Source: a virus. From it: a DNA stretch of 33,535 nucleotides. The notes under the pieces were generated by a model. It made no database searches, was not told where the DNA came from, and was given only the letters and a program-made list of their open reading frames with translations. This document shows, piece after piece, positions 2 to 24,317 of the stretch; positions within the stretch are counted from its first letter, which is position 1, and every line of letters begins with the position of its first letter. A program made the position numbers and the translations under genes. The stretch lies in IMG/VR virus record IMGVR_UViG_3300030419_004518, positions 58,646 to 92,180 of that record. The stretch is one strand, 5' to 3'.

Positions 2-2965
2 GTTGCTCAAAATATTGGTCATGGCACATATCCAAGAATGACCATTGAAGGTCAATATGGTAGAGTTGGTATCGGAAGTACTATTCCACAGAAACGATTA
101 ACAATAAGAAATGGTAGTGGAGATGATGGTGGAATATTAGTCCAACCAAATATTAATTTTGCAGCTAATGAAAATCGTGCATATTTAGTAGTTGGAACAG
201 ATGCTTGGAGTGGTTTAACTACAAGCTGGAATACTTATGGATTCCAACATCGTTTCAAAACAAATTCAGGTGGTTCTCCTAGATTAACTATTGACTCTGC
301 ATCTGGAGAGTTATTATGTATTGAAAATGGAGGTAATATTGGTATCGGAACTGACAATCCACTTAGACCACTTCACATAGAAGCTTCAGATTGTCGCATC
401 AGATTGACAGATTCAGATGTAACTACAGATGTTGAACTTCAAAATAATAGTGGTGATGCTATTCTAACAACTAACGGAGCAAGTAATTTAAGTCTTCAAA
501 CCAATAATACTGAAAGACTTCGCATCACATCAGATGGTAAAGTTGGTATTAATACTAATAGTGGTTTAAAAGCACCACTTCATGTTGCCCATGCTGACGG
601 TGGTTTTGGTGCTACACCATATAATAAGGCTGCGATTTTTGGTTCTAAAGGTTGGGTAGATGATACTAGATATCACTATAATGATGCAACTATTTTTCTC
701 TCAGGTAGAAATAATGCTGGTATTGATACTGGTGCTGGAATAGAATTTACCACTCGTACTGTGGCTGATAATAATTGGAGACATGGAGCAATTACTTTTG
801 GTCAAGATGGTATTTTTAGAGTTCTTAATGGTGGTGCTGGAACAACAGAAGGAACAGAAAAAGTTAGCATCTTAACAAATGGTAATGTTGGAATCGGAAG
901 TACTACTCCAACATTAGGATTAGATATAAACAGAGGTGCTAATTCTGGTGTCTTTTTGGGTAATCCTATACACGGATATAAGATAAGAGCAAATGCAACT
1001 AGTTCTAATGATTATGGATTGCTGATTGAGGATGAGGATGGTGTTGATCTTTATAGAGCAGTAGCTTCTACTGGTACTAGTAATGCAAATACTCATACAT
1101 GGTGGACAGACACTGAAGAAAGATTTCAGATCACATCAGGTGGTGTTAAACAAATTAAGAATGGAAACCTGAATATACTTTCAACATATATTGATTTCTC
1201 TGGTTCTTTATCTTCAACACCAGCAACAGCAGCAGCAATATTCAGACCAGCAGATAATACACTTGCATTCTCAACTGCAAATGAAGAAAGACTTCGGATC
1301 GCATCAGATGGTAAAGTTGGTATCGGAACCACTAATCCAAGATCCACATATCTTCATGTTGGCCCTGTTGGTAATACTCCTGGTAGTGTATTTACTACAT
1401 CTCCATTATCCGTATTTGCATCTGGTAATTTAGGAGGAACTACTGGTGATGATAATAAAATTGCAATATTTGGAGGTCAATCAACAGGTAATGTATCTGG
1501 ATTAAGTCTTTATCATTATAGAAGGTCAACTGGTACTAGTTGGACAACAGATGGATTCTCTTTCAGACAAGAGGTTGATAATACTGCAGACATTCATAAT
1601 TATATGTGTTTTGCTGGTGGTAAAGTTGGTATCGGAACTGCAATTCCAGGAGAGAAACTACATGTAATTGGACAAGTTGGTGGTTCTAACCCTTCAGCAG
1701 GATCAAAATGGGATATTGCTAGATTTGTAGCACATGATTATTCTGCTACAAACAGTGGTGGATTAACCATAGGTGCTTATTGGAATAACAGTACTGTTAG
1801 TGGAAGAAGATCATATATTCAATCTTCACAGAGCACCGATTCTGGAAGCACTGCTAGAGACTTGTTATTAAATCCTGATGGTGGTGATGTTGGTATTGGA
1901 ACCGATCAATTTTATGATGGTTCTACAAAGTTAGAAGTAAGAGGAAGAATTAATACAGTTGGTAGTGCATCCACAGGATCTATAAACCCAGGTAATGGAA
2001 CTGTTGTTAATGTAGGTTCATTAACAAATCATAATTTACAGTTGATTACTGGTAATTCTACCAGAGTAACAATTGTACAAGCAGGTACGTCTGGGGAAGC
2101 AATGCGTATCTCAGGTGTTGGTGTAACTGTACAAAGTTCCTTAACTCCTAATTTTGAAGTACAGACTACAGCTTCTTCAGGTCAGGATTGTAAGATAACA
2201 CTAAAAGGTGCAAGAACTTCTTCTAGTACCAGTAATATTGCTATGATACGATTCGTTAATGATACATCTTCCTCATATACGATGGGTGAAATTGTTGGTA
2301 TGGATCCAGCTGGAGCACATGCTAGTCAAATAGGTGATCTAGTCTTTAGAACAACTCATAATGATACCACAACTGAAGTTGCTAGATTTACAGGTGGTGC
2401 AACTGCTGCTGGTAGAAATTTAAAATTTGCGGATGGATCTGGTATTGATTTCTCTGCAACTACTAATTCACCAGGTGCTAACTCTGATACGACAAGTGAA
2501 GTTCTGAATGATTATGAACGAGGAACTTTTGATTTCAAATTAGATGATGATGATGCTGGTAGTGATACTCTTAAGATGCATTATGTTAAAGTCGGAAGCA
2601 TAGTACATTGTTATGGTCCATTTAGAGGTACTGAAGGTCAATCTGCATCTGTATATTGGCAATTATCAGGTACAGCAAATTCAAATATAACTACTAGTTG
2701 TGAATTACCATTCGTTCCTGTAGATTCTGGTGCATGTGACTCACCAATTTATAGAAATATAGAAACAAGAGAACCGAAAAATCCTTCAGATGGTGAACTT
2801 ATGCCAGTTTTGGGTTGGGCAGCAGGAGATTCAACATGTAGATTAACTGATACCAGAACTGAAAAAGTATATAATGCTTATGCTGCTGGTGATACAATGC
2901 AAAAAGCTGATACTAGGACTAACGTTGTTCTACATTTTAATTTTTGCTACGTTACAAATTCCTAA
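2..2965 (+). CDS. Repetitive tail-fibre protein, 5' end cut by window
   Basis: This is the C-terminal 987 codons of a long virion fibre protein. The frame is open from base 2, and the residues before the first in-frame ATG (base 38) already fit the repeat, so that ATG is internal and the true start lies upstream. About eight units of the type R-(L/M)-x-I-x-S-x-G-x-VGIG(T/S)-x-x-P are visible (for example near bases 60, 340, 540, 890, 1310, 1625), separated by 40-110 residue inserts. Such units are common in marine phage fibres and are expected to form a trimeric beta-rich shaft; this is family knowledge, not shown here. The end differs: a GIDFSAT segment followed by LNDYERGTFDFKL (around 2440-2560) is the terminal domain type often seen in marine phage fibres, probably a distal tip. 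A late promoter for the next gene overlaps the stop codon. Confidence 0.86.
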   Translation, partial: VAQNIGHGTYPRMTIEGQYGRVGIGSTIPQKRLTIRNGSGDDGGILVQPNINFAANENRAYLVVGTDAWSGLTTSWNTYGFQHRFKTNSGGSPRLTIDSASGELLCIENGGNIGIGTDNPLRPLHIEASDCRIRLTDSDVTTDVELQNNSGDAILTTNGASNLSLQTNNTERLRITSDGKVGINTNSGLKAPLHVAHADGGFGATPYNKAAIFGSKGWVDDTRYHYNDATIFLSGRNNAGIDTGAGIEFTTRTVADNNWRHGAITFGQDGIFRVLNGGAGTTEGTEKVSILTNGNVGIGSTTPTLGLDINRGANSGVFLGNPIHGYKIRANATSSNDYGLLIEDEDGVDLYRAVASTGTSNANTHTWWTDTEERFQITSGGVKQIKNGNLNILSTYIDFSGSLSSTPATAAAIFRPADNTLAFSTANEERLRIASDGKVGIGTTNPRSTYLHVGPVGNTPGSVFTTSPLSVFASGNLGGTTGDDNKIAIFGGQSTGNVSGLSLYHYRRSTGTSWTTDGFSFRQEVDNTADIHNYMCFAGGKVGIGTAIPGEKLHVIGQVGGSNPSAGSKWDIARFVAHDYSATNSGGLTIGAYWNNSTVSGRRSYIQSSQSTDSGSTARDLLLNPDGGDVGIGTDQFYDGSTKLEVRGRINTVGSASTGSINPGNGTVVNVGSLTNHNLQLITGNSTRVTIVQAGTSGEAMRISGVGVTVQSSLTPNFEVQTTASSGQDCKITLKGARTSSSTSNIAMIRFVNDTSSSYTMGEIVGMDPAGAHASQIGDLVFRTTHNDTTTEVARFTGGATAAGRNLKFADGSGIDFSATTNSPGANSDTTSEVLNDYERGTFDFKLDDDDAGSDTLKMHYVKVGSIVHCYGPFRGTEGQSASVYWQLSGTANSNITTSCELPFVPVDSGACDSPIYRNIETREPKNPSDGELMPVLGWAAGDSTCRLTDTRTEKVYNAYAAGDTMQKADTRTNVVLHFNFCYVTNS
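519..553 (+). repeat. Shaft-unit DNA seam, copy 1
   Basis: 35 bases beginning TTCGCATCACATCAGATGG are identical to bases 13682-13716 and 14006-14040, which lie in a different gene 13 kb away. They encode RITSDGKVGIN of the shaft unit. Shorter, slightly diverged versions occur in every repetitive fibre gene here. Confidence 0.85.
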
Positions 2966-2971
2966 TAAATA
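2964..2971 (+). promoter_or_regulatory. T4-type late promoter (AATAAATA)
   Basis: AATAAATA overlaps the stop codon of the preceding fibre gene and lies 38 bases before the next start. It matches the NATAAATA late-promoter core of T4-like phages, which is recognised by a phage sigma factor related to gp55. The same core recurs before six other structural genes in this window. Confidence 0.7.
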
Positions 2972-3009
2972 ATAATGCCTAAACCTGTTTAGTTCGGAGG
3001 ACTTTCCTA

Positions 3010-3297
3010 ATGGCTCTTACTGAATCAATTGAATATGATAAGATTGAAGTTGTTGGACTTTATAAACATATTCAAGTTAGAAAAGCTACAGTTATAAAAA
3101 AAGATGGAAATGAAATAACTCGTACATTTGATCGTTATGTTTTAAAATGTGGATCTCTAGGTAGTAATAATGAATTAGTAGAAACTGATATTTCTGGTCA
3201 ACCAGATGAAGTAAGAGCAATATGTAATGCAGCATGGACAGATGCAGTCAAAGAATCTTGGAAAAACTATATGACTGCTCATGATAATGGAACTTAA
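3010..3297 (+). CDS. Small conserved structural-module protein
   Basis: A 95-residue soluble protein with no membrane segment and no recognised catalytic motif. The N-terminus (EYDKIEVVG...IQVRKATVIKKDG) and C-terminus (AICNAAWTDAVKESWKNYM) resemble a small protein I have seen repeatedly beside tail-fibre genes in marine T4-like phages. Its function is unknown to me; a virion or fibre-assembly role is inferred only from position between two fibre genes. The start is well supported: CGGAGGA lies about 9 bases upstream of the ATG, the strongest Shine-Dalgarno site in the structural module. It has its own late promoter at 2964 and another late promoter follows it, so it could be made in amounts different from its neighbours. 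Confidence 0.75.
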   Translation: MALTESIEYDKIEVVGLYKHIQVRKATVIKKDGNEITRTFDRYVLKCGSLGSNNELVETDISGQPDEVRAICNAAWTDAVKESWKNYMTAHDNGT

Positions 3298-3314
3298 TTG
3301 TTATGAAATGTACT

Positions 3315-3322
3315 CATAAATA
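3315..3322 (+). promoter_or_regulatory. T4-type late promoter (CATAAATA)
   Basis: CATAAATA followed by GGTAAAAAG lies 14 bases upstream of the ATG of the 1698-residue fibre gene. The A-rich stretch after the core recurs in the promoters at 8442 and 12522. Confidence 0.72.
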
Positions 3323-3335
3323 GGTAAAAAGTATA

Positions 3336-6300
3336 ATGGCATTAGATAAATTAACTAAAATTGATTCTCAAACTGGTATAAGAACCACAGCTGATTATAC
3401 TGTATCAGATTTGACAGTGGATACTGTAACTGTTAAATCTGGTGGAATCAAGATGCCAGTTGGAATGAGTACATTCCAAAATGTTACTGTTACTGGAGAA
3501 TTAACAGTAGAAGGAACGACAACAACATTAGATACTAATTTGATAGGTGTAGATAGAGTTGAAGTAGGAGCAGATAGTGATAGTGTTGTTGGTGTAGCAG
3601 TCACACAAAGTGGATCAGCAGATATTGTAAAGTTAGTTGGATCAGGAAGTACAGTTGTTACTGTTACTACTGGTGGAAATGTTCTTGTGGGAACAACAAA
3701 TGAAGGTACTGCTGCCCAGTTGTTGTCACTTTATAGAACAGGTTCATCTTCATTAGAATTGAGAACTAATACAACTGGAAATAGTATTCTTCATTTTACT
3801 GATGGAGATCCACCATCAGGTAATGCAGCATATAGAGGATTTATCGAATATAATCATAGAAATGATTTTATGAGGTTTGGTACTTCTGCGTCGGGAAGAG
3901 TTTGGATTAATAGTGCGGGAGTTGGTATCGGAACGACCAACCCACAAACAAAATTGCATATATTAGCTGCTAATCCAGTTATAAGATTAACAGATTCAGA
4001 TCAAACAACAGATAATAAGAGTTGGAATATTTCTGCTGGAACAGCTAATATTTTAAGATTCCAAGCAATAAATGATGCTGGTAGTAGTGGTGGTGGAAAT
4101 TTATTTGAATTTTATAGAAGTGGAACGGCAATAAATCAATTCCGTGGAGTTAAATCTGCTACTCCTTGGTTTGTAATTGATAATGACACCAGAAGAGTTG
4201 GTATCGGAACTACCATTCCAATAGAAAAATTGGAAGTAACTGGAAATACTGTTATTGGAATTGTAACAGATAAAACAAATTATTCCAATACATTTGATGC
4301 AAGTGGTAATGGATTAGGTGTAACTGGAGTTAGAGCTCTTAATATTATTGATCATAATGCTGTAATAAAAATAGCAAGAAATCATAATAACTATGGATCA
4401 GGAATAGATTTTCAGCATTGGAATCTTGATATATCTACAAGGTATGGTAGAGGACTTGTTGGGATTGAGTCTAGTAGTATGTATTTGATGAATACTACTG
4501 AAGAAGGTTACATACACTTTAATACTACACCAAGTGGTGGATCGCATACAGAAAGACTTCGCATCAATTCAGGTGGTCAAGTATCAATAAGTGGAGCAGG
4601 AACCACATTTGGTAATAATACATTATTGAATATAGCACCTGCGAATAGAACAACTGCATTTGATGCAAGTGATGGAGATACTTGGCATGATGTTGTTATA
4701 AAACATGGGGGAGATGCTACAAATAATGCAGTAGGACTTGCTTTTGAAGTTTCAGCAGATGCTTATCATAAGAATGCTGGAACTGGTATTGCAGCAATTA
4801 AGAATGGAACTGATAGTGATTATGGTGCTGATTTAGCATTCATCACCAGACCACAAAGTGCGGTTGCACAAGAAAGACTTCGCATCACATCTGATGGTAG
4901 AATCGGTATTAATGATAGTACGCCAAATGATTATGAATTGGACATAATGAAACGTAGCACTGCTACTGATGCACAGATAAGACTTTATAATAATGGAACA
5001 GGTTCAAGCAATGATACAATAATGCGGTATCAGATTGGTGGAACATCGGCAGCTAATTATATCTACTTTGGAGATAGTGGTGATACCAATGCTGGTCAGA
5101 TAGTCTATAATCATGGCAACGATAGTATGAGATTTTGGACTGGTGCTAATGAAAGACTTCGCATCGACTCAAGTGGTTTCGTTGGTATCGGAACTGACGA
5201 TCCACAAAAGACTTTAAATGTTTTTGCTGGTGTAGGAACAACTGAGTTAATTCGCCTCTCTCAACCAGTTGATGCTAGTGTTCAACAAAATTTTGGAATA
5301 GGTTGGTGCTCAAATAATAACCACACATGGCCTGGAGCACAAATAACTTCTGAGGAATATGATGTCTCAGATCCAAGGAGATCTTTACTTTTTTATACTA
5401 GAGGAACAAATGATGATATTGCTCCTACTGAAAGACTTCGCATCACAAGTGCAGGTAATGTTGGTATCGGAACTAATACTACAAATGAACTCGTCCGTAT
5501 ATTTTATACTGATTCAACGGTATGGCCTTTTGATTCTACGGTAAGTGGAGCACCTACGTATACTCCATACTCTAATGAGGTAGTTCTTCATAATCATGTA
5601 AGAGACACACTGGGTTCATTTGCTAGTATCTTTTTCCGTGCAGGATCAGATGCTAGTGGAAATAAAATTGGAACAGCAAGAATAGCTGCTGTAGATACAG
5701 GAGATTATAAAGCAGATCTTGTATTTGGAACAAGAAATACTACATTCGCTGAAAGACTTCGCATCAAATATGATGGTAATGTCGGTATCGGAACTAGTGT
5801 ACCTGATGCACCACTTCATGTACATACTACTCCTGGTTATGGAACCATAGCAATATTTGGTAGTAATGACAATACATCTGGAGAACAATTTGAGTGTCTA
5901 GAAATAAAAAATGATATAGCAACATATCCTGCATTATCAAATCAGTCATCTGGTGATACTTTAGATTTAAGATCTTTGGGTTCGATTCAGGCAACGATAG
6001 ACTCAAATAATAATTCGACTGGTAGGTATTTCCGTGTATCTGCTAATGGTATCGGTAATACTGCAACTGAATATTTCAGAGTTCAAGAAGATGGTTTGGT
6101 TGGTATTAATAGCACCAGTCCAGGACATCAATTAGATGTAGTTGCTACTACTTCTGCTGTTGCAAGATTTGAAAGAACTGGTGGAGCATGGGCAAAGGTA
6201 GATATTAAAGCAGGTAATAATGCTGGTAATTCATATCTTACATTTAGTGATACTGATGCAAGTGAAAGAGGCGAGATTAACTATGAACATAATGATGATA

Positions 6301-8432
6301 GTTTGAGATTTGGTACTGCTGGAACAGAAAATAGAATGACGATTGATTCAGCTGGTCGTGTGTTAGTAGGACTAACTAGTGCTATGACCACTGGATCAAA
6401 TGATCGTAGAGATACTATTCAGGCAGTTCATACAGCAGGTGCTCAACTTCTACTAGGACGTAATGATACAGAAACATCAGTATCAAATAGGTTAGGTGAA
6501 ATTGCAGCACTAACTAATGATTCTGGAGGAAATGGATATAAGGTAGGTGCATCTATAAGATTTGAAGTTTCTGCTACTCATGGTAGTGGTGGTGATCATC
6601 CAACATCAATATTATTTCAAACTTGTACTGATGGTAGCGACACCTTAGAAGAGAGAATACGTGTTAATCATGATGGTGATCTTATAATGACATCATCTCA
6701 AATTCAAAAAATTAATAATACTGGTTCTCTGGTTCTTGCTGGTGGTGATGATTCAAATGTTGGTGGTAATATTACAGTGTATAGTTCTAATCATGGCACT
6801 ACTTCTTTACGAGATGTAATTAGATTTAGGAATAGTGCAAATGAATGTATGCGTATTGATGGTAGTGGTAGACTACTTCTGGGTAGTAGTAGTGAAACTG
6901 ATCGTTCTATTAGTGATGACTCAACTGCAGTTCTTCAATTGAGTCATGCATCAACACCTAAAATGATCCTTGTTAGAGATGATACTAGTATTGTTTCTGG
7001 TAATCATATTGGAATAATTGATTTTCATAGTATAGATGCAGGTCCAGTTAGGTGTGCAAGAATTTCAGCACTTGCAACAGCAACTCATCAGTCAAATGAT
7101 CATGCTACTGCTTTAACATTCCAGACTTGTGCTGATAATACTTCCACTTCCCAAGAAGCGTTGCGTATTTGTCATGATGGTGATGTTATGATTAACAGAA
7201 ATGACGCTAATACATCAAATAATGCTATTCTTGAAATAAATTCGCATGATATTCAAAACAAATATAATTATGATAATACGTCACAATATGCTCTGTTGAT
7301 CGATAGTCATTTTTCTGGTACTGAAGATTTAACAACAAATAGAACGAAAGCAGGTATAAGAATTGATATGGAGTACAGTGGTACTGGTGCAAAGAGTAAT
7401 ACTTCTGGTGAAAGAAATGCTTTGTATGGAGTACATTCTACAATAAACACAACAAAAGATACGTATACAGCTTATTCTGGATACTTCTTTGCAGAAGCAG
7501 GAGCAGATGATCAAGAGGAATCCACTACCGTTATGGGTGTATATGGATATGGAAGAAATTATAGTATTGGAGGATCAAATAGAAGCTCCACAATATATGG
7601 TGGATATTTCTTAGGATATAGAGGTGGAGATATAAATGCTGGACACCTATATGGTGTATATGCACGAGCACATCAGACCACTAACGGAAGTGGTAAGGGT
7701 GGTGATATAACTGGTGTGTACTCAGAATGTGAATTTGATGAAGAAGATATCAACAATGCATATGCCTTTAGAGGGCATATGGACAGGGATGCAGGTACTA
7801 TTACAAATGGTTATATTCTTTATGGTTCTTTTTCTGGAGATTCTAATTTCACCAACAGATGGGGAATTTACATAGGAGATTCTGCGAAGAACTATCTTAA
7901 TGGTGACTTAGAAATTACTGGTACTTTTGAAAAAGGAACTGATAACTTTAGAATACCACATCCACTTGTAGGACTCACAACAACAAAAGATCTTGTTCAT
8001 AGTGTGATTGAAGGTCCACAGATGGATCTTATCTATCGTGGTAAGACTGATCTTGTTGCTGGTATATCCACAATTAATATTGATACAAAAGCAGGAATGA
8101 CAGAGGGTACATTTGTTGCTCTTTGTAGAGATATTCAGTGCTTTACATCAAATGAAACAGGATGGACAAACGTAAAAGGATCTGTGACTGGTAATAAAAT
8201 CACAATTATTGCACAAGATAATAGTTGTACAGACACTATTTCTTGGATGGTTGTTGGTGAACGTCAAGATGATAATGCTAAATCAGCAAAATGCACTGAC
8301 AATGATGGTAATCTTATCGTTGAACCTGATAAGAGAACTGATCTTAACGATAAATATCAGGCAGAGTCTGAGAAAAATATTTACAATATAGATCCTAATC
8401 ATAATCCTGGTGATGATCCTGTTGAAGAATAG
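3336..8432 (+). CDS. Giant repetitive tail-fibre protein (1698 aa)
   Basis: The longest gene in the window. The N-terminal ~120 residues hold a head region (LTVEGTTTTLDT, TQSGSADIVKLVGSG) that is clearly paralogous to residues 35-130 of the fibre encoded at 12547. Residues ~195-1270 contain about twelve shaft units ending in VGIGT or a degraded form (VLVGLTS, LLLGSSS, VMINRND), so repeat quality falls toward the C-terminus. Residues ~1300-1530 form a different, Gly/Tyr-rich segment with recurring YGVY, YGGYF and YGYG motifs. The C-terminal part (HPLVGLTTTKDLVHSVIEGP near 1540, GTFVALCRDIQC near 1590, SWMVVGER near 1636) is a domain I recognise from many marine phage fibres, and the extreme end is acidic. 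The likely role is a long fibre or tail appendage contacting the host. Expressed from the late promoter at 3315; the ribosome site is weak. Confidence 0.87.
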   Translation: MALDKLTKIDSQTGIRTTADYTVSDLTVDTVTVKSGGIKMPVGMSTFQNVTVTGELTVEGTTTTLDTNLIGVDRVEVGADSDSVVGVAVTQSGSADIVKLVGSGSTVVTVTTGGNVLVGTTNEGTAAQLLSLYRTGSSSLELRTNTTGNSILHFTDGDPPSGNAAYRGFIEYNHRNDFMRFGTSASGRVWINSAGVGIGTTNPQTKLHILAANPVIRLTDSDQTTDNKSWNISAGTANILRFQAINDAGSSGGGNLFEFYRSGTAINQFRGVKSATPWFVIDNDTRRVGIGTTIPIEKLEVTGNTVIGIVTDKTNYSNTFDASGNGLGVTGVRALNIIDHNAVIKIARNHNNYGSGIDFQHWNLDISTRYGRGLVGIESSSMYLMNTTEEGYIHFNTTPSGGSHTERLRINSGGQVSISGAGTTFGNNTLLNIAPANRTTAFDASDGDTWHDVVIKHGGDATNNAVGLAFEVSADAYHKNAGTGIAAIKNGTDSDYGADLAFITRPQSAVAQERLRITSDGRIGINDSTPNDYELDIMKRSTATDAQIRLYNNGTGSSNDTIMRYQIGGTSAANYIYFGDSGDTNAGQIVYNHGNDSMRFWTGANERLRIDSSGFVGIGTDDPQKTLNVFAGVGTTELIRLSQPVDASVQQNFGIGWCSNNNHTWPGAQITSEEYDVSDPRRSLLFYTRGTNDDIAPTERLRITSAGNVGIGTNTTNELVRIFYTDSTVWPFDSTVSGAPTYTPYSNEVVLHNHVRDTLGSFASIFFRAGSDASGNKIGTARIAAVDTGDYKADLVFGTRNTTFAERLRIKYDGNVGIGTSVPDAPLHVHTTPGYGTIAIFGSNDNTSGEQFECLEIKNDIATYPALSNQSSGDTLDLRSLGSIQATIDSNNNSTGRYFRVSANGIGNTATEYFRVQEDGLVGINSTSPGHQLDVVATTSAVARFERTGGAWAKVDIKAGNNAGNSYLTFSDTDASERGEINYEHNDDSLRFGTAGTENRMTIDSAGRVLVGLTSAMTTGSNDRRDTIQAVHTAGAQLLLGRNDTETSVSNRLGEIAALTNDSGGNGYKVGASIRFEVSATHGSGGDHPTSILFQTCTDGSDTLEERIRVNHDGDLIMTSSQIQKINNTGSLVLAGGDDSNVGGNITVYSSNHGTTSLRDVIRFRNSANECMRIDGSGRLLLGSSSETDRSISDDSTAVLQLSHASTPKMILVRDDTSIVSGNHIGIIDFHSIDAGPVRCARISALATATHQSNDHATALTFQTCADNTSTSQEALRICHDGDVMINRNDANTSNNAILEINSHDIQNKYNYDNTSQYALLIDSHFSGTEDLTTNRTKAGIRIDMEYSGTGAKSNTSGERNALYGVHSTINTTKDTYTAYSGYFFAEAGADDQEESTTVMGVYGYGRNYSIGGSNRSSTIYGGYFLGYRGGDINAGHLYGVYARAHQTTNGSGKGGDITGVYSECEFDEEDINNAYAFRGHMDRDAGTITNGYILYGSFSGDSNFTNRWGIYIGDSAKNYLNGDLEITGTFEKGTDNFRIPHPLVGLTTTKDLVHSVIEGPQMDLIYRGKTDLVAGISTINIDTKAGMTEGTFVALCRDIQCFTSNETGWTNVKGSVTGNKITIIAQDNSCTDTISWMVVGERQDDNAKSAKCTDNDGNLIVEPDKRTDLNDKYQAESEKNIYNIDPNHNPGDDPVEE

Positions 8433-8468: not shown

Positions 8469-11400
8469 ATGCCTTATATTGGTCAATTACCTGCAACTGG
8501 TGAGAATAATGCGTTTAGGATATTAGATGATATTTCTTCTTATGTTCTAACATTTGATGGATCGGATGCGAGTGTTGTAAGTACATCGAATGATACAATT
8601 ACAATAACTGGTGCAGAAAATAGATTTCTTACAGGACAAAGAGTAACATATAGTAAAGGCTCTGGTGGAACGGTAATAACTGGGTTAACAGATGATACAG
8701 CATATTATGCAATTAGAGATAGTAATACAACAATAAAACTTGCTACTAGTTCATCAAATGCAACTAATGGTGTAGCAGTTGATCTAACAGGTGTTGGAGG
8801 AGGAACAGCACATAAAATAACTCTAGCATTTGATGGAACAAATACAAAATTTAGAACAACATATGATAGTGGAAAGCAAGATCCAAAGGTAACTAGAGCT
8901 GCTCAATTAGTATTATCAATAAATGGTATTATTCAACAACCAATTGATAGTACATCACCTTCTTCTGGTTTTGGAATTGATGGTGGTGATATTGTATTTT
9001 CAACTGCACCTGATGCCAATGATGATTTTTGGGGTCATGTATTAGCAAGTAATACAGTAACATTTGATATTTCTGATAATGATATAGATAATTTTACTGG
9101 TGATGGATCAACAGTAAACTTTACTCTTTCAAAAACTCCATCAGATAATAGAAATGTTTTAGTTACATTAGATGGTGTAGTTCAGTATCCATCAGATAAT
9201 AGTACAACAAGAGCATATCAAGTTTCAGAGAATGAATTACAGTTTGTAAGTGCTCCTGCATTAAATGTTTCGATACAAGTAAGACATATTGGTTTTGCTG
9301 GTGCATCAAGTGGTTCTAGTGCATCTGGTGGAGTAACAGGATTTTATGGTAGAACAGGTAATGTAGTATTAAAGAACACAGATAATCCAGTTATTGGTAA
9401 TTTAACAGCAGTAGATGGAACATTTAGTGGTAATGTTTCTATTGCAAAGACATTAACATACATGGATGTTGCACATATTGATGCTGTTGGTGTGGTTACA
9501 GCACAATCTGGTATTCAATGTCTTGATGATTTGAATGTTGGTTTAGGTACATTTTTTGTTGATAAGAGCACAGGATTTGTAGGTATTGGAACTATTGTTC
9601 CAGTAAGGAAACTTCATGTAGTGTCCGATGAACAGGTAGTAGGACTTCTTACATCTACAAATGCTGCAAATAAAAGTTTTCTGAGGATGTCGGATCCTAC
9701 TACAACTTCTCAAGGAACTGCCCCCTCTATTGGAAGTAAGGGTGATTTTTTAGAGTTAAGAACTGGTAGTGCTACTAGATTAACTATCGACTCAAGTGGT
9801 AATATTGGTATTGGAAGCACTGCTCCTGCTCAATTATTACATTTAGAAAAAAATGGTGCATTTCAAATTCTTTTAAAAAGAGGTGGTGGTTCTCCTAGTG
9901 AGGTGGCATTTAAAAACTCAGGTAATTATGCAGTAATCTCAAATAATACAAACGGAATAGATTTACAAACAGGTACGACTCCATCATCTTCTTTGCATAT
10001 TGATCAATATGGTAAAGTTGGTATCACAACCGAAGAACCACAGAGAAATTTACATATACATCAAAATACAGCAGCTAGTGCTTATTTGCATATGACTAAT
10101 AGCACTACAGGTGCTACAACCACTGATGGTTTTAGTTTGTATATTGCAACTAGCGGAATTGCATATTATCGGGCAAGAGAAACTACAGGACAACATGTAT
10201 TTTATACAGGAACTACAGAAAAATTTCGCATAGATGAAGATGGTAAAGTTGGTATTGGGTCAGATGATCCAGATGCATGGTTACATATACAAACTGTCAG
10301 CACTACTGGTGATGAAGATCTTATTAAATTAAGTCGTAACCAATATGAAGTAGGTAAGATAAGAAGATCTGCAGGTGCTATGAGGGTCAGTGGTGATGGA
10401 AATTTACATCTTGAAGCTGATTATAATACGGATCATGGAGCAACAGATTCAAATATTATATTTAATGTTGATGATGATGAAAAAGTTCGCATCACATCAG
10501 CAGGTAGGCTAGGTATAGGAACTGATAATCCATCACATGACCTAGATATCGAATCTGTTCATCCAACTATTGAGTTGAAAGATTCAGATAATAATTATAT
10601 TTTCCAATTAACACAAAGTGGTTCTGCTACTTATGTGGATTTTGATACAACAGGTGGAGGAAGTTCATCACTTAGAATTAGAAATGCTGGTAGTGAAAAA
10701 GTTCGTATAACTTCTGGTGGTCTGGTCGGCATCGGAACTGATAATCCAGACTCTAAACTTTCTATTTACAGTGGAACTGCAGGTACAGTAACAGCAGATG
10801 CAGATGCTGATGAATTAACACTTGAGAGTAGTGGTAATGTTGGATTATCCCTATTAACAGCAGCGACAGGTGAGAGTAGTATTTACTTTGGAAATCCAGG
10901 TACTAACGGACAGAAAGATGGTTGGATAAAATATTATCACGAATCTCATTCAACAACAGCAGATAGAAGATGTTTATCATTTAAAACTGGTGGTGGATCT
11001 GAGAAAATGAGGCTTGATGCTACTGGTAGATTACTAATAAATCGCACAGCACAACACGCATCAAGTTCTGAAAGATTGAGTGTGAATGGAATGACTTCCA
11101 TTCAAAAGGATAGTACTAGTACTGCTGGATTGTATGTTTTTAATGAAGAGACAACAAGTGATGGAACTGTTCAACCATTTATTTTCTGCCATGATGGTAG
11201 TGGTATAAGATCTGGACTCGGTGTTCAAAGAAGTACTGGAAAAACAATTTTAAATGGACAGTTTGGAATATCATTAAGAACTGGTTCTTCTGGAGTTGGT
11301 GGTGATGAAAGACTTTTCATCAAATCAGATGGTAATGTTGGTATAGGAACTGATAATGCATCAACACAATTACACCTTAAAGGTAGTGACCCAACATTTA

Positions 11401-12546: not shown

Positions 12547-15500
12547 ATGGCATTCACCAAAGTCCGTGGTCGGGGAGTCACTACAACAGATAATTATACA
12601 GTTGGAGTTATAACTGCGACTAAGTTCGTTGGTCCGATTACTGGTGGTGGTGGAGGAATTAATGTTGGTGTTTTAACTGCAACAGAATTAGATCTTAATG
12701 GTAATGGAGATGTCAGTGGTAATTTAGTTGTTCATGGTAATCTTACAGCAAACGGAGACTTCACTACATTAAACACAACTTTAAGAGAAGTAGAATTATT
12801 AAAAGTAAATGCAAATAGTTCAACAACAGCAGGTATAATAACACAAACAGGTGCAGGGGATATATTAAACTTATTTGATGGAACTACAGAAGTGATGACT
12901 GTAGTTGATGGAGGTAAAGTCGGTATCGGAACCACTAATCCAACAGAAAAATTAGATGTCCTTGGTAATTTAGTAGTTGCAGAGTCTCTTGCAGTCAATA
13001 GACCTCGAATTGTCTTATCTGCTCCTGATCAAGGTTCAAGTACTTATAGTCATTTATTTGGTGCAAATTTAAAAGTTGATAGTTCTGGAACTTTTACAAC
13101 TCCAACTGCAAACATTAGTGGTGGTGGATGGGAATATCTTGCTCAAAATAGTATTAATCAACATGGAGAGATAAGATACCTATCTGCACCTGATACAAAT
13201 GCAACATCATCAACTCCATTAGAAAGATTTCGCATCGACTCAGATGGTAAAGTTGGTATCGGAACTTCTACTTTAGCAGCTAGCAGCAGACTTACTCTGC
13301 TTGAAGAAACAGGAAATGCACAGACATTAGAAATTAAAGCAACAACTGCTACAAGTACAGGTTCACAACCTGGAATTAAATTAACAGCAAATAATGGTGA
13401 TAATATTGGTGGTATCTTTGGTGATGTAAATAGCGATCAGTTAAGAATTCAAACAGGTGGAACAGATAGAATTATTGTTAATAATATAGGTATTACCTCT
13501 ATACAAGGTCAAGATGACCAAGATAATTTTATAGTTGATGTTAATGGTACTGAATTTGCAGTTCATACAGATGCCACAGATGGTGAAGTAAGTTTAAGAG
13601 GACAAGACGGAACTGCAAATAATTATGCCAAATATATGACTTTCTTCACTCAAAAAAGTGGGGAAGCAGCAGCTGAAAAAGTTCGCATCACATCAGATGG
13701 TAAAGTTGGTATTAATAGAACTAATCCAACCTCTTTTCTACATGTAGCAGGTGGTGATTATCAAACACTAAGACTGGAAAACACTGATAATGGTGCTAAT
13801 GGTCCTTACATAGAACTTTATAATAATTCATCATCTCCTGCTGATGATGACTATATTGGTATTCTTAGTTTCAAAAATAATAATAGTGCTGATGAAGAAA
13901 TAACATATGCTCAGATTAGATCGCAATCTACAGATATTACCGATGCGACAGAAGATGGTGTTTTAACATTCCATACAAGAAATAATGGAACATTTGGAGA
14001 AAAAGTTCGCATCACATCAGATGGTAAAGTTGGTATTAATGAAGATGTTCCTCAAGCATTACTACATGTAGCAACTGATAATGGACAGACACTCCCTACA
14101 ATAAGTGCTAGTTTTCCTTTAATAGTAACTAAAAATAGTAATGCTGGCATCGCCATAATAGCAAAAAATGATGCAAAATCAATAATTGGATTTGGTGATA
14201 CTGATGATGCTGATAGAGGAAAAATACAATACGTTCATACGAGTGGTGCTGATGCAGACTCTATGCAGTTTATTAGTGCTGGTGTTGAAAAACTTCGCAT
14301 TGTAGGAGCAGGTATTACAGTAACAGGAGAAATTGCAACAGAACAAGATTATCCAGATTACCGACCAACATTAGATCTTAACTTCGCAGCAGTCAAGAAA
14401 TTAGATTCAAGAATTGTATATTATAGAGGTGGAAATGCATCATATACAGATGAGTTTGGTATTGTTAGAGTTGTTGGTGCTAATACTCCAAGATTTGATC
14501 ATGATCCAGTAACAAAAGAGTGTAAAGGATTATTGGTTGAAGAAGCTAGAACTAATTATTGTAAATCAAGTTCAGATTTTTCTAGTTTATGGTCATCTTC
14601 TACTGGCGGTTATGGTATAGACAATGCAATAACCAATCCAGATGGAACTGTTGGAGCACAATATCATATAGGTGCAGAATGGTATCATACTATGGATGTA
14701 TCTGGTGCTAGTACTAACGTGATTACAATTTCTGCGTGGGTTAAGGAACGGTCTGGACAATCTGGAAATCTTGCCTTTCAAGTATACCAACAAGTATCTG
14801 GAAGTGTAGTTGATATGGGTACATTTGGTTTTAATCCTGCAACTGGAGTACTAAGCACTGCTGATGCAAACTTCTCTGATGGTATAGTAACGGAATATCC
14901 AAATGGTTGGTACCGAATTAGTGTAAAAGCAACCACAGATTCTGGTAATTTTTCATCTAGTACTAGACTTGATCAACAGGGAGAAGAACATTATGTTTGG
15001 GGTGTACAAGTAGAAGCAGGATCATATGCAACTTCTTATATTCCAACTTATGGATTTACATCAACTCGTTCAGCAGATAGTTTAACAATTAAAGGAAAAG
15101 AATTTAGTGATTTATATAACCAAAAAGAAGGAACCCTAATGGTGAATGGATATACACCACCAACAACTTTAGTAGCATCTCCTGCTACTAAAAATAGTGT
15201 TAGTTTAAGGGGATCAAGTCAAGCAGTGCATTCTATAAGATATGTTCCTCATGCTAGTACTGCAACTAATAGATACGTTGATGCTTTCCAATTACTTGCT
15301 AATGGAACAAACGTAGTTGATCATGGTGGTTCTCATGGTAATGCAATTGAAGATAGGTATTATAAACATATTACTACGTTTAAAGAAAATGATTATGCAT
15401 ATACTTTTAATGGAGGACATCAAGTTTGGACAGATACATCTGCAGATTTACCTGAAATGGATAGACTAATTATTGGTGAAAGTCCAACACAATTCTTCTT

Positions 15501-15564
15501 AAAGAGAGTTGTATATTATCCAAAGAGACTTCCAAATTCTCAATTGACTACTTTAGTCTCATAA
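12547..15564 (+). CDS. Tail-fibre protein with C-terminal receptor-binding-type domain (1005 aa)
   Basis: The N-terminal head (GNLTANGDFTTLNTTLREVE, then TQTGAGDILNLFDGT) is paralogous to the head of the fibre at 3336, so the two probably share an attachment partner. Only about five shaft units follow (residues ~120-590), and two of them share a perfect 42-nt DNA repeat at 13675 and 13999. The last ~400 residues are a distinct domain: PRFDHDPVTKECKGLLVEEA near residue 650, a beta-rich core with ISAWVKERSG and GWYRISVKA, and YVWGVQVEAGSYATSYIPT near 815-833. That combination marks a carbohydrate-binding or jelly-roll-like tip domain found in many phage tail proteins. The inferred role is host-surface recognition, with the shaft acting as a spacer. 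Late promoter at 12522. Confidence 0.87.
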   Translation: MAFTKVRGRGVTTTDNYTVGVITATKFVGPITGGGGGINVGVLTATELDLNGNGDVSGNLVVHGNLTANGDFTTLNTTLREVELLKVNANSSTTAGIITQTGAGDILNLFDGTTEVMTVVDGGKVGIGTTNPTEKLDVLGNLVVAESLAVNRPRIVLSAPDQGSSTYSHLFGANLKVDSSGTFTTPTANISGGGWEYLAQNSINQHGEIRYLSAPDTNATSSTPLERFRIDSDGKVGIGTSTLAASSRLTLLEETGNAQTLEIKATTATSTGSQPGIKLTANNGDNIGGIFGDVNSDQLRIQTGGTDRIIVNNIGITSIQGQDDQDNFIVDVNGTEFAVHTDATDGEVSLRGQDGTANNYAKYMTFFTQKSGEAAAEKVRITSDGKVGINRTNPTSFLHVAGGDYQTLRLENTDNGANGPYIELYNNSSSPADDDYIGILSFKNNNSADEEITYAQIRSQSTDITDATEDGVLTFHTRNNGTFGEKVRITSDGKVGINEDVPQALLHVATDNGQTLPTISASFPLIVTKNSNAGIAIIAKNDAKSIIGFGDTDDADRGKIQYVHTSGADADSMQFISAGVEKLRIVGAGITVTGEIATEQDYPDYRPTLDLNFAAVKKLDSRIVYYRGGNASYTDEFGIVRVVGANTPRFDHDPVTKECKGLLVEEARTNYCKSSSDFSSLWSSSTGGYGIDNAITNPDGTVGAQYHIGAEWYHTMDVSGASTNVITISAWVKERSGQSGNLAFQVYQQVSGSVVDMGTFGFNPATGVLSTADANFSDGIVTEYPNGWYRISVKATTDSGNFSSSTRLDQQGEEHYVWGVQVEAGSYATSYIPTYGFTSTRSADSLTIKGKEFSDLYNQKEGTLMVNGYTPPTTLVASPATKNSVSLRGSSQAVHSIRYVPHASTATNRYVDAFQLLANGTNVVDHGGSHGNAIEDRYYKHITTFKENDYAYTFNGGHQVWTDTSADLPEMDRLIIGESPTQFFLKRVVYYPKRLPNSQLTTLVS
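13675..13716 (+). repeat. Shaft-unit DNA seam, copy 2 (42-nt perfect direct repeat)
   Basis: 42 bases beginning GAAAAAGTTCGCATC are identical to 13999-14040, 324 bp (108 codons) downstream in the same frame. Recombination between the two copies would delete or duplicate one complete unit without disturbing the reading frame. Confidence 0.88.
13999..14040 (+). repeat. Shaft-unit DNA seam, copy 3 (42-nt perfect direct repeat)
   Basis: Partner of the repeat at 13675-13716. The inserts that follow the two copies are unrelated in sequence, so only the seam is conserved. Confidence 0.88.
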
Positions 15565-19458: not shown

Positions 19459-19460
19459 CC

Positions 19461-19838: not shown

Positions 19839-19854
19839 ACACTCTGTTATACTT

Positions 19855-19862
19855 GATAAATA
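19855..19862 (+). promoter_or_regulatory. T4-type late promoter (GATAAATA)
   Basis: GATAAATAAATC lies 27 bases before the ATG of the small coiled-coil gene, the longest spacing among the short promoter-start distances here apart from 2964. Confidence 0.68.
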
Positions 19863-19889
19863 AATCAGGATTTATTAAAACTAATTGCA

Positions 19890-20126
19890 ATGACTGAACA
19901 ACAACAACATTTACAATCTGCTATTCAGCAACAGAATACTCTTCTGAATGAAATACAGAGTCTTCAACAGCAAATTGATAATAAAAGACAATTAGCAGTT
20001 AAAGCTCAAGGTATTATTGAGTATCTCGATCAAATTGGGGTAAAACTTCCAGAACCAGAGACAACTGCATCTCCTGAAGAAACAGAAGAAGTAGAAACAT
20101 CAGATACCCAAGTAGTAACTGAATAA
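19890..20126 (+). CDS. Small coiled-coil protein next to fibre gene
   Basis: 78 residues in two parts. Residues 1-40 are Gln/Leu-rich heptads (QQQHLQSAIQQQNTLLNEIQ and on) predicted to be a coiled coil. A conserved-looking link, AQGIIEYLDQIGVKLPEPE, leads to a disordered acidic tail rich in Glu and Thr. I have seen this architecture (coiled coil, '(A/G)xxEYLxxIGVxLPEPE', acidic tail) next to marine T4-like fibre genes. The function is unknown; oligomerising chaperone or fibre connector are possible but unproven. It has its own late promoter (19855), and the promoter for the next fibre gene overlaps its stop codon. Confidence 0.72.
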   Translation: MTEQQQHLQSAIQQQNTLLNEIQSLQQQIDNKRQLAVKAQGIIEYLDQIGVKLPEPETTASPEETEEVETSDTQVVTE

Positions 20127-20129
20127 ATA
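20122..20129 (+). promoter_or_regulatory. T4-type late promoter (AATAAATA)
   Basis: AATAAATA overlaps the stop codon of the coiled-coil gene and lies 31 bases before the next ATG. This is the third case in the window of a late promoter built over a stop codon. Confidence 0.68.
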
Positions 20130-20159
20130 GTTCCAATCGAAGAAATTGGGGTAAAATAG

Positions 20160-23100
20160 ATGCCTTATGTTGGTAGAGACTTACAAAGAGGAAATTACGT
20201 AAAATTAGATGATATTAGTTCTTCATTTGATGGAAGTGTAACTACATTTAATTTAACTTTAGGTAATTCTGCATTTTACCCTGGCTCTCCTTTTGCGATT
20301 CTAGTTAGTCTTGGTGGTATTATCCAAGAACCAGAATCAGCATATACTATTAATCAAAGTCAAATAACCTTTGCTGCTGCACCTCACAATGTAGATAATT
20401 GCTTTATCATTGCATTGGGACTCTCGTTAGGTATAGGAGTTCCTGGTCATGGTACAGTAGATGGTGATCAACTCGCCAAACCATTAAATTATAACACAGG
20501 AGATTTATATCTAGATTCAACAAATAATAGAATTGGTGTAGGAAATACTTCACCACAATATAGGTTAGATGTCACTGGAGATGCAAATGTTAGTGGTAAT
20601 CTATCTGTTGGTGGTACAGTAACATATCAGGATGTAACGAGTATAGATTCAGTTGGTATTATAACTGCACAAGCAGGTATTCATTTAGGTATTGGTGCAA
20701 CAGCAGGTAAGTTTGATGCATCAACAGGTATATCTACATTTAGTAGTGCTGTTGGAATAGCAGATTCAATATTTCATGTTGGTAATACAGATACTTCAAT
20801 TAGATTTCCTGATGATGATGTCATTTCAGTTGAAACTTCTGGTGATGAAAAACTTCGCATCACATCAACAGGTCAAGTTGGTATTGGAACTGATGTGCCA
20901 TCTTCAACAAATACAAAATTACAAGTTTATACTAACAGTCATACAATAGCAAGAATGACTGGTGGCATATCATCATCAACAATATTGTATTTTGGTGATC
21001 CTGACGATACCACACGAGGTTGGATAGCATATAATAATAGTAATGATTCTATGGAACTTGGTGCTGGTAATGCTGATAGGATTCACATTGATTCAAGTGG
21101 CCGTGTTAGTATTGGACAAACTGATCCATCTTGGGGAGTTTCTACTGGTCTAATAGTTGGTGATGGTGCAAGTTCTAGAGGAATAACAATTTATAGTAAT
21201 TCTTCAAATGTTGGAGATTTGGCATTTGCTGATGCAACAAGCGGAACAGGAAGGTATAGTGGTTTAATAAGATATAGTCATAATAATAATTTTATGGCAT
21301 TTAGAACAGCGACAGATGAAAGAATTCGCATTATATCGGATGGTAAAGTTGGTATCGGAACCACTGCACCAGAATCATTATTAAGTCTTTATTCTGAAGC
21401 AGATGGTGCTGAACTTCTTCATTTTGATATGGGTTCATCAGATGCTCGAAGAGGTTGGAAGTTCCTACAACATGATACTGGCACATCAACTGATTTACAT
21501 CTACAAGCAGATTCTAGTGGAAAATGGTTTGCAATTTGTAATAGTAGTGGTACCGAACAATTTGAAGTATATACATCTACAACAGCTGCTGATGCATTTG
21601 TAAGAGTCATTCCTAGAATTAGTATAGGATCAACGATAGTACATCATGGAGATCAAGATACATCAATAGGATTCCCTGCTGATGGTCAATTTGCAGTAGA
21701 AACGAATGGTAGTGAAAGACTTCGTGTTTCAAATACTGGTAAACTACTTATAGGAACAGATAGTAGTAGACAAACTCGTGTTTCTAACTCTTCTTTCTCT
21801 GGACTTGTACAGGTAGAAAGTGATGCTGAATTGGGATTCACTCTCAGTAGATTTGTTGATACTTCTGGACCACCAAGATTTGTTATACAAAAAGCAAGAG
21901 GAACTGCTGCTTCTCCTGCTATTGTTCAGGATGATGATACGGCTGGACAATTTTTATTCAGTGCTTATGATGGATCTGATTGGAGTAATGTTGCTAAAAT
22001 AAATGCAGAAGTTGATGGTAATGTAGGTGTCAATAGTATGCCTGGTAGAATGGTATTCGGAATAACTGCTGCTGGAAGTAATTCAGTAACAGAAAGACTT
22101 CGCATCAATTCAACTGGTCAATTAGAATTACGTAAGAATCAAGGTGGTGTAACAGGAAGACCAGAAAATAGAATAGTATTCAGAGATCTTGATAGTAGTG
22201 TTGCAGCAGAACAACCAATAGGTGAAATATCTTGGTATTCTACTGATGCTGGTATGACAAATGTTAATTCTTGGATTAGAGGAATTAATGAAGCAACTAA
22301 TGGTGCTGGAGCACTTTTATTTGGTGTAAAGGATGCAGGTGAAGATGAAATTGAAGCATTGCGTATCACACATGATGGTTTGGTTGGTATCGGAACTCCT
22401 GTTCCAGATGCAAAACTTGAAGTATATAATGGTGGTATTAAAATTGATAGAAAAAATGTAGGAGGTACTTCTAATCCTCATCTTAATATGGTAACTGGTG
22501 CAAATGGTACTGCAAGATTGATGATATATGCAGAAGATGGCACTGATGATAATAGTAATTGGGTATACAAAACTAATGCTAATGAAGAGCATTCATTTGT
22601 GGTTGCGACAACTGAAATACTTCGCTTGAGATCAAACAAAGTCGGAATTGGTCAGAGTGTTCCAACAGCAAGACTTCAAGTAGCAGGTAGTAATCCATAC
22701 GCAGTTACAGACTCAGGTAGAGCAGTAGAAGGAATTGATATTACTGGAACAGCAGGTGGTAATGGTAATTATGGTGCTGCAATTTCTTTTGGTGCTGGTG
22801 CTACTGGACGTGCTGCAATTACTGCAGTTCAAAATGCTACTGATGCTGATAATGTAGGACTTGCAATTATTACTCATCCTTCAAACACTGGAGCAGCTGA
22901 TGCAGAAGAAAAGATTCGCATCACATCAGATGGTAATGTTGGTATCGGAACTGATAATCCTCTAAATCCCCTTGAAGTTTGGGGTTCATCCGTAGACCTT
23001 GCGATTATGGACACTCAAGCTTACAGTCAGAATTCAAGTGGCCCTGCTGTTGCTTTTCAGGGAAATGATAGTGCTGGTGTTAGAAAAACATTCGCAGACA

Positions 23101-24317
23101 TTAGAGGAGTTGCAAACGGTTCTAACATAGGGGAATTTGCAATAAGAACAAGAAGAACTGGAGGAACCTTAACTGAAGCACTTCGCATCGACTCAAGTGG
23201 TAGAGTTTTAATAGGGACAACTAATGTACCATCAAATAAAAATACTGTTACCCCATCTTTAAATGTTTTAGGCAGTGGAGTAAATGGTGCTGCACAAATA
23301 ACTCGTCATACAAGTGTAGGCGGTGGTGGTGCATTGCTACATCTTGCTGCAACAAGGGGTGGTGATGTTAATAGTTATACAATTTTACAAGATGGTGACG
23401 GCATCGGTACTGTCGCTTTTAACGCTGCGGACGGAAATGAGTTTGTTGTAGCGGCTGAAGTTAAATCCCAAGTCGATGGTACGCCTGGCGATAATGATAT
23501 GCCTGGTCGGTTGATATTTGCAACCACATCCGACGGAGCATCATCTCCAACAGAAAGACTTAGAATTGATTCAAGTGGTTCTGTGTGGATTGGATCTGAC
23601 ACTCAGTATGGTAATAATGCATTTAATATATCGAATGGAGGTACAATTATTACTTCCAGTGGACAAAATACTTTAAAATTAATTGATTCAACTGCTCAAA
23701 CAGCAGATGTGGGAGCACGTATTCTTTTAGGTGGTAATTATAGATCATCTGGAGATGCTAGTCCGATGGTGGAATTAAAATCTTTTAAAGAAAATAGCAC
23801 AGATAATAATTATGCTTATGGATTTAAAATATCTACTACACCAAATGGTGGAAGTCTTTCAGAAAGACTTCGCATCGCATCGAATGGTGGTATCATTGTT
23901 GCTGCTAATGCCAATGATGTTGGAACAATCCAACTCCAAGATAATCTAATAGGAGGACATAGAATTGCTGTAGATCAAGATACTATTAGTGATGCCATTT
24001 ATATGCCACGTAAAGGATGTATAGTAGCAATTACTGCATTCACTACTTATGATACTTATCCACAACCAGGTAGTAGTGGAATGGCATATTTAGATATGGG
24101 CCCTAGTAGAAGAGTTGATATAATGTATCATGTAAATGAAGATGCTACTGGATCTAATACTGTTGGTAATGCTCTGAAAGGAAAAGGTGCTTATAGTGCA
24201 ACTATTACAGACTGCACTAATAATAAGACAACACTTATGGCTGGAAATACAGAAGGAACTTTCCGTATTGTGAATCGTACTAGTAATGATTATACATACA
24301 CAATTACATTCTTATAA
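20160..24317 (+). CDS. Repetitive tail-fibre protein (1385 aa) with mosaic units
   Basis: The N-terminal head (MPYVGRDLQRG, DDISSSFDGSVTTFNLTLG, ILVSLGGIIQEP, ALGLSLGIGVPGHGTVDG; residues 1-105) is the typical attachment head of cyanophage fibres and resembles the head of the 8469 fibre. A collar (VTYQDVTSIDSVGIITAQAG, near 155-175) is paralogous to that same fibre. About twelve shaft units follow. Two are internal duplicates: a 'DTSI-x-FP-x-D...VET' unit near residues 205-235 and 500-530, and an 'MPGR-x-(I/V)F' unit near residues 625 and 1115. The second MPGR unit is strikingly GC-rich. The final ~150 residues (HRIAVDQDTISDAIYMPRKG, AYLDMGPSRRVDIMYHVN) are a unique C-terminal tip. It is the last gene of the late block and ends 6 bases from a convergent gene. 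Confidence 0.87.
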   Translation: MPYVGRDLQRGNYVKLDDISSSFDGSVTTFNLTLGNSAFYPGSPFAILVSLGGIIQEPESAYTINQSQITFAAAPHNVDNCFIIALGLSLGIGVPGHGTVDGDQLAKPLNYNTGDLYLDSTNNRIGVGNTSPQYRLDVTGDANVSGNLSVGGTVTYQDVTSIDSVGIITAQAGIHLGIGATAGKFDASTGISTFSSAVGIADSIFHVGNTDTSIRFPDDDVISVETSGDEKLRITSTGQVGIGTDVPSSTNTKLQVYTNSHTIARMTGGISSSTILYFGDPDDTTRGWIAYNNSNDSMELGAGNADRIHIDSSGRVSIGQTDPSWGVSTGLIVGDGASSRGITIYSNSSNVGDLAFADATSGTGRYSGLIRYSHNNNFMAFRTATDERIRIISDGKVGIGTTAPESLLSLYSEADGAELLHFDMGSSDARRGWKFLQHDTGTSTDLHLQADSSGKWFAICNSSGTEQFEVYTSTTAADAFVRVIPRISIGSTIVHHGDQDTSIGFPADGQFAVETNGSERLRVSNTGKLLIGTDSSRQTRVSNSSFSGLVQVESDAELGFTLSRFVDTSGPPRFVIQKARGTAASPAIVQDDDTAGQFLFSAYDGSDWSNVAKINAEVDGNVGVNSMPGRMVFGITAAGSNSVTERLRINSTGQLELRKNQGGVTGRPENRIVFRDLDSSVAAEQPIGEISWYSTDAGMTNVNSWIRGINEATNGAGALLFGVKDAGEDEIEALRITHDGLVGIGTPVPDAKLEVYNGGIKIDRKNVGGTSNPHLNMVTGANGTARLMIYAEDGTDDNSNWVYKTNANEEHSFVVATTEILRLRSNKVGIGQSVPTARLQVAGSNPYAVTDSGRAVEGIDITGTAGGNGNYGAAISFGAGATGRAAITAVQNATDADNVGLAIITHPSNTGAADAEEKIRITSDGNVGIGTDNPLNPLEVWGSSVDLAIMDTQAYSQNSSGPAVAFQGNDSAGVRKTFADIRGVANGSNIGEFAIRTRRTGGTLTEALRIDSSGRVLIGTTNVPSNKNTVTPSLNVLGSGVNGAAQITRHTSVGGGGALLHLAATRGGDVNSYTILQDGDGIGTVAFNAADGNEFVVAAEVKSQVDGTPGDNDMPGRLIFATTSDGASSPTERLRIDSSGSVWIGSDTQYGNNAFNISNGGTIITSSGQNTLKLIDSTAQTADVGARILLGGNYRSSGDASPMVELKSFKENSTDNNYAYGFKISTTPNGGSLSERLRIASNGGIIVAANANDVGTIQLQDNLIGGHRIAVDQDTISDAIYMPRKGCIVAITAFTTYDTYPQPGSSGMAYLDMGPSRRVDIMYHVNEDATGSNTVGNALKGKGAYSATITDCTNNKTTLMAGNTEGTFRIVNRTSNDYTYTITFL

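Follow-up and report, generated by a model that had tools for sequence, protein, structure and literature searches.

Why do the repetitive tail-fibre genes of one virus share short, nearly identical stretches of DNA (seams), when the inserts between them are unrelated? A sequence-only reading had proposed that the seams act as in-frame recombination points for swapping, gaining or losing fibre segments, or that gene conversion keeps them alike. We investigated these proposals in positions 58646–92180 of the 92,180-base virus record IMGVR_UViG_3300030419_004518 (the window, i.e., the whole 33,535-nt stretch that was analysed). The record has a GC content of 34%, starts with a frame whose translation reads as psbA-like, and carries fibre genes that match cyanophage fibre genes. 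On these sequence features, its source was taken as a T4-like marine cyanophage, of whose genome the 92-kb record is probably an incomplete representation. The seams lie in five genes, all of which matched phrog_18345 and phrog_9942 (both named tail fiber protein):

2..2965, + strand, seam-bearing tail-fibre gene 1 (ORF from 38; frame open upstream of the window; PHROG tail fiber families phrog_9942/18345)
3336..8432, + strand, seam-bearing tail-fibre gene 2 (1698 aa; PHROG tail fiber families)
8469..12512, + strand, seam-bearing tail-fibre gene 3 (1347 aa; PHROG tail fiber families)
12547..15564, + strand, seam-bearing tail-fibre gene 4 (1005 aa; PHROG tail fiber families)
20160..24317, + strand, seam-bearing tail-fibre gene 5 (1385 aa; PHROG tail fiber families)

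No Pfam family matched the five genes above the curated cut-off, and an AlphaFold model of one cassette was uninformative (mean pLDDT 45). One gene of the window matched a DNA-helicase family. A small conserved gene at 3010–3297 (MALTESIEYDKIEV) sits between fibre genes and has similar counterparts in many Prochlorococcus and some Synechococcus phages (~67–75% nucleotide similarity along stretches of up to 290 nt).

The seam encodes the motif ERLRI..DG.VGIGT in 45–60 nt. A regex search returned ~28 seams, all in frame, in the five fibre genes, and a repeat search of the window grouped 21 sequences as copies of one 57-nt unit, with an identity of at least 60%. The reported 42-nt perfect repeat was confirmed: its copies at 13675 and 13999 match without exception, and the final 35 nt are found once more at 519. 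Further copies lie at 4872, 5430, 5751, 10479, 13222, 20847 and 22908, at most ~10 bases away from where they had been placed. The proposed range ends at 23890, but one more seam was found in the gene that directly precedes the window. The individual seams are:

512..556, +, seam ERLRITSDGKVGINT, 35 nt identical to 13682/14006
857..901, +, seam EKVSILTNGNVGIGS, repeat search and regex
1286..1330, +, seam ERLRIASDGKVGIGT, repeat search and regex
4551..4595, +, seam ERLRINSGGQVSISG, degenerate 3′ half
4872..4916, +, seam ERLRITSDGRIGIND, repeat search and regex
5151..5195, +, seam ERLRIDSSGFVGIGT, repeat search and regex
5430..5474, +, seam ERLRITSAGNVGIGT, repeat search and regex
5751..5795, +, seam ERLRIKYDGNVGIGT, repeat search and regex
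7155..7199, +, seam-like EALRICHDGDVMINR, degenerate, regex
9774..9818, +, seam TRLTIDSSGNIGIGS, repeat search and regex
10218..10262, +, seam EKFRIDEDGKVGIGS, repeat search and regex
10479..10523, +, seam EKVRITSAGRLGIGT, left edge of the unit in common with Marine virus AG-345-E15
10695..10739, +, seam EKVRITSGGLVGIGT, other codon dialect (CGT ATA), the sole such seam in this genome
11001..11045, +, seam-like EKMRLDATGRLLINR, degenerate, regex
11307..11351, +, seam ERLFIKSDGNVGIGT, repeat search and regex
11529..11573, +, seam EKLMINSSGQVGINQ, repeat search and regex
11823..11867, +, seam EKMRIKSSGEVGIGT, repeat search and regex
13222..13266, +, seam ERFRIDSDGKVGIGT, repeat search and regex
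13675..13716, +, seam, copy 1 of the 42-nt perfect repeat
13999..14040, +, seam, copy 2 of the 42-nt perfect repeat, 324 bp downstream of copy 1
20847..20891, +, seam EKLRITSTGQVGIGT, repeat search and regex
21318..21362, +, seam ERIRIISDGKVGIGT, repeat search and regex
22092..22136, +, seam ERLRINSTGQLELRK, 5′ half only
22353..22397, +, seam EALRITHDGLVGIGT, repeat search and regex
22908..22952, +, seam EKIRITSDGNVGIGT, repeat search and regex
23175..23219, +, seam EALRIDSSGRVLIGT, repeat search and regex
23553..23597, +, seam ERLRIDSSGSVWIGS, version with AGA ATT
23862..23906, +, seam ERLRIASNGGIIVAA, 5′ half only

A second DNA-conserved joint was observed near the N-terminus of fibre genes, at 20590–20688 and 9396–9517 of the window and ~600 bases upstream of its start. 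This joint reads YQDVTSIDSVGIITAQAGI in two of the three places and has 81–85% identity over 79 nt in P-SSM2, S-B05 and AG-345-E02.

Seams of this kind could result from selection on the protein only. The seam peptide would then be a fold element (a cap or turn ending a shaft domain), cassettes would be exchanged at domain borders by any recombination, and bad products would be purged. The motif is conserved as protein in 57 phage loci, and breaks within domains are expected to damage folding. However, the codons do not follow from this explanation. Among the regex seams with Arg at position 4, R4 was CGC in 17 of 24 and I5 was ATC in 18 of 23, in line with the codon bias noted earlier. Outside the seams, CGC accounted for at most ~0.4% of the 645 Arg codons of hand-picked non-fibre genes (printed 0.00) and ~1–2% over all open frames; for ATC, the share of Ile codons was 7% in hand-picked non-fibre genes and 10% over all open frames. 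In this genome, all 14 Arg2 codons of the motif are AGA. Because R4 is CGC yet Arg2 is AGA, the bias belongs to the position and not to the amino acid. The same contrast was found over all loci, where Arg2 was AGA in 176/226 seams and Arg4 of these same seams was CGC or CGT in 195/226. Moreover, the conserved Leu22 shows no codon excess, and the codons at R4 and I5 are genome-specific. The seams are conserved as DNA, and the earlier statement that selection on protein alone is insufficient is supported by these three observations. Its companion, that GGT ATC GGA is also kept, was only partly correct: ATC is used at this Ile in 10/22 seams, and seams with GIN use ATT AAT. Protein selection is thus contradicted by the codon data as the sole explanation, which we consider unlikely, and it may have an additional role.

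Seams were compared between phages in a set of 57 phage loci with 554 seams; a profile made from 205 seam peptides gave 663 seam matches in 64 loci. When viral contigs were scanned, two whole fibre proteins returned 3 and 0 loci, a degenerate seam pattern 3, a neighbouring gene of 414 aa returned 2, and a single-cassette query 45. The seams were similar inside each genome and different between genomes, with two linked codon dialects. CGC-ATC (123 seams; dialect 1) and CGT-ATA (76 seams; dialect 2) were the two commonest of the fourteen R4-I5 combinations listed. Four or more informative seams were available for 27 loci; CGC-ATC made up at least half of these seams in 15 loci and CGT-ATA in six, whereas in the other six loci neither did.

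The within-genome excess of codon identity over the expectation from codon usage reached +0.6 in the seam and fell to ~0 towards the seam edges; it was also ~0 for the conserved Leu22. For R4/I5, the excess was +0.35/+0.31 within genomes and −0.10/−0.07 between genomes. Adjacent seam pairs (0.33), distant pairs (0.31) and pairs from other genes (0.37) had a similar excess. When labels were shuffled for R4, the maximum in 2000 shuffles was 0.413, compared to the observed 0.659. The excess is an indirect measure used in place of seam-versus-insert synonymous divergence, because inserts are not alignable inside a genome. Copies are closer within than between genomes, beyond codon usage. The seams are therefore homogenised within genomes, as had been suggested, and their pattern is a signature of concerted evolution and not of protein or codon selection. 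Homogenisation by ectopic exchange predicts such a pattern, and protein selection, codon preference or RNA structure do not; gene conversion would be its cause.

Codon choice could also have been shaped by translational selection, either through rare-codon pausing between domains or through phage tRNAs. CGC is very rare here, and a tRNA-Ile of S-TIM61, annotated 'tat', could read ATA. On the other hand, the rare GC-rich pair occurs in the phages of lower GC, and the AT-rich pair in most of those with a higher GC. The choice is also position-specific (AGA at R2 versus CGC/CGT at R4; I13 unlike I5), which makes translational selection highly improbable.

The inserts are unrelated, as had been stated: only 40/3367 within-genome insert pairs from all loci were detectably homologous. 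Between phages, inserts with 60–85% protein identity kept a homologous neighbour in 2/78 comparisons, which contradicts an identical unit order in relatives. At an identity of at least 85%, neighbours were kept in 46/70 comparisons, nearly all of them from two pairs of near-identical genomes, L040/L058 and S-TIM5/S-TIM66. Two cassettes of the window appear to have been exchanged:

10478..10732, + strand, exchanged cassette; 84% identity to AG-345-E15 from seam to seam, with the sole scored neighbour insert non-homologous
13487..13701, + strand, exchanged cassette; 76–87% nucleotide identity to four other viral contigs, right edge in the seam at 13675

The neighbours of the second cassette were non-homologous wherever they were scored in the four contigs. 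The CGT-ATA seam at 10695..10739 is probably the edge of an imported cassette.

Cassettes were shared mainly within dialects. HSPs of at least 130 nt and at least 80% identity numbered 47 within dialect 1, 8 within dialect 2 and 1 between the two, and per unit of sequence compared, recent sharing (at least 80% identity) was ~50-fold rarer between dialects than within. This distribution would also be expected without ongoing homogenisation, if one recent founder seam per lineage had spread by cassette duplication and later exchange had stayed within the dialect. Yet most inserts within a genome are unrelated to each other, and where an insert has homologues in the other dialect group, its flanking seams are of the resident dialect (66 CGC-ATC versus 1 CGT-ATA in dialect 1; 35 CGT-ATA versus 1 CGC-ATC in dialect 2). 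A founder origin alone is therefore doubtful. Dialect cannot be separated here from lineage, GC and possibly host, and it may either limit exchange or only mark the lineage.

If exchange occurs in seams, homology between phages should end there. Block ends fell in seams in 54% of cases at an identity of at least 65% and in 90% at an identity of at least 90%, compared to ~21% for random ends; the observed level was reached in 0/2000 draws. We relied on this count, which used distinct phages, ends inside seam-bearing spans, lengths of at least 120 and an expectation from the same span. A looser count gave only weak enrichment (0.31 of all ends and 0.36 of distinct ends in seams, versus 0.25 expected). 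It included ends anywhere in the gene, took the expectation only from the seam-bearing span and applied a filter for inserts of at least 90 nt; the two counts differ because of the choice of ends. Since selection could purge breaks inside inserts, enrichment in seams alone is no proof of exchange driven by DNA homology.

Individual events were observed at nucleotide level in isolated phages. S-TIM5 and S-TIM66 differ by seam-to-seam deletions of 825 bp and 291 bp, the insertion of a 327-bp unit, and a block replacement (~1.2 kb for 1.1 kb) that is common to S-TIM61 and S-TIM66. The junctions lie inside seams with a local identity of roughly 9–17 nt (in one case ~9 nt or less), a shortness that speaks against homology as the driver. 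In the seam-rich stretches, 7/9 breakpoints are in seams, which make up an estimated sixth of these stretches; fibre breaks outside seams occur, e.g., at S-TIM5 21268 and 22009, and also count against it. The seams are thus located at natural breakpoints, and together with the block ends these events support the proposal that they serve as recombination points. Two more S-TIM5/S-TIM66 breaks, at 27996 and 29764 of locus L020 (S-TIM5), lie in another repeated motif, TTSTGV, which suggests that neighbouring fibre genes have another family of seams.

S-TIM5 and S-TIM61 are 98.7–99.8% identical in aligned parts of at least 5 kb, and four places do not align. One is the fibre block at S-TIM5 77256–78453, with a seam at both ends. 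The others are S-TIM5 128613–128777, the end of a gene annotated tail fiber; S-TIM5 166659–167140, which adjoins a terminal inversion; and a virion structural gene (S-TIM5 149876–151122 versus S-TIM61 149586–150739), tape-measure-like by eye, whose middle part is strongly different and has no visible seams. The terminal 5.3 kb are inverted (S-TIM5 167140–172474 versus S-TIM61 166284–171618), which could be biological or a matter of end assembly.

No near-identical relative of the window phage was found, so no exchange event was seen in this phage itself, and its seam junctions are deduced from the cassettes in common with other phages. Two further pairs add no event: L040 and L058 because they are near-identical (99.99% over 9.7 kb), and Sf-CH5 and Sf-CH8 because both have the same seam-bearing fibre gene. 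In the latter pair, a gene annotated flagellar hook-length control protein (L089 22782–26653 versus L090 22500–26372) has an annotation in two pieces in Sf-CH5 and in one in Sf-CH8, with repeats of ~75–78% nucleotide identity. The experimental-evolution study on an S-TIM phage concerned S-TIM4, not S-TIM5.

The junctions also bear on whether the seam serves as a signal at the DNA or RNA level (a dedicated recombinase site, a regulatory element or an RNA structure) that is conserved for binding. A fixed nonamer (CTTCGCATC or CTTCGTATA) recurs in the seams, and CTTCGTATA resembles part of a loxP arm. However, two different dialects fill the same place, and the junctions are spread over different parts of the seam instead of the one cut site of site-specific recombination (shufflon, invertase, Cre-lox). 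RNA structure in six seams did not exceed that of shuffled sequences (z −0.8 to +1.0). Such a signal is thus very unlikely.

We consider it probable that the seams are in-frame homology joints for cassette exchange, that the same exchange keeps them alike, and that the payoff lies in adhesin and host-range variation. A cassette would consist approximately of ..VGIGT, an insert and ERLRI.., and the seams would provide short in-frame homology between cassettes of repetitive fibres. While the phage DNA replicates and recombines, ectopic exchange, homologous or by annealing, could occur between any two seams, inside one genome or between co-infecting phages, and seam homology would be its driver. 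Phages of the T4 type have genes for a recombination system of their own (PMC2993671). Whole cassettes would be deleted, duplicated or replaced with the reading frame intact. Ectopic exchange would double as gene conversion, holding the seams near one codon version and giving rise to lineage dialects, and homogenised seams would in turn stay recombinogenic. The suggested host-range payoff fits the isolation hosts of the three phages (WH8102 for S-TIM5; CC9605 for S-TIM61 and S-TIM66, the two with the replacement block), although other genome differences are present.

Because cassette exchange would need seam homology, same-dialect phages could pool adhesin cassettes, with the other dialect largely shut out. 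We put forward this role of the dialect, as a key to exchange compatibility, only tentatively; if true, marine cyanophages would fall into recombination groups that homogenisation both generates and preserves. For changes in the receptor-binding fibres of marine phages, the seams offer a concrete, testable mechanism, with nucleotide-level junctions from the isolated phages S-TIM5, S-TIM61 and S-TIM66. Seam exchange may be a route by which cyanophages change hosts. The seams also mark out the cassettes of fibre genes whose annotation is difficult, the codon dialect is a tag for tracing cassette origin, and the locus is a case of concerted evolution on a ~45-nt tract within coding sequence.

A literature text search for VGIGT returned no paper on the motif. 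The literature searched, which most subscription papers lie outside, held no description of a seam that is homogenised throughout a genome and forms lineage dialects, and the dialects appear to be new. Tail-fibre recombination at motifs is already known from T-even gp37: in T-even distal tail fibres, conserved motifs of the fibre locus recombine, by which segments are exchanged and, according to the title of Tetart et al. (1998, J Mol Biol 282:543; cited in PMC3797505 and PMC6363177), adhesin specificity is swapped. The natural breakpoints found here likewise lie in conserved motifs, in both the S-TIM junctions and the HSP ends. Here, however, one phage has ~28 seams in five genes, with genome-wide codon homogenisation, lineage dialects and single-cassette resolution. 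Cyanophage fibres with Peptidase_S74 (endosialidase chaperone) are also related, as two S-TIM5 fibre genes end in this domain and one of them is seam-rich, whereas the seven window proteins tested gave no match to it at E ≤ 0.1. Mosaic shuffling of phage protein fragments (PMC10684548) similarly builds tail fibres and receptor-binding proteins from exchangeable fragments; that survey compares protein profiles, whereas here a DNA joint is conserved and breakpoints are mapped to it. As in concerted evolution by ectopic gene conversion in repeated sequences (e.g., PMC8230782 and PMC3966223), paralogous copies are closer within a genome than between genomes; in contrast, the tract here is only ~45 nt long and lies inside coding sequence, between unrelated flanks.
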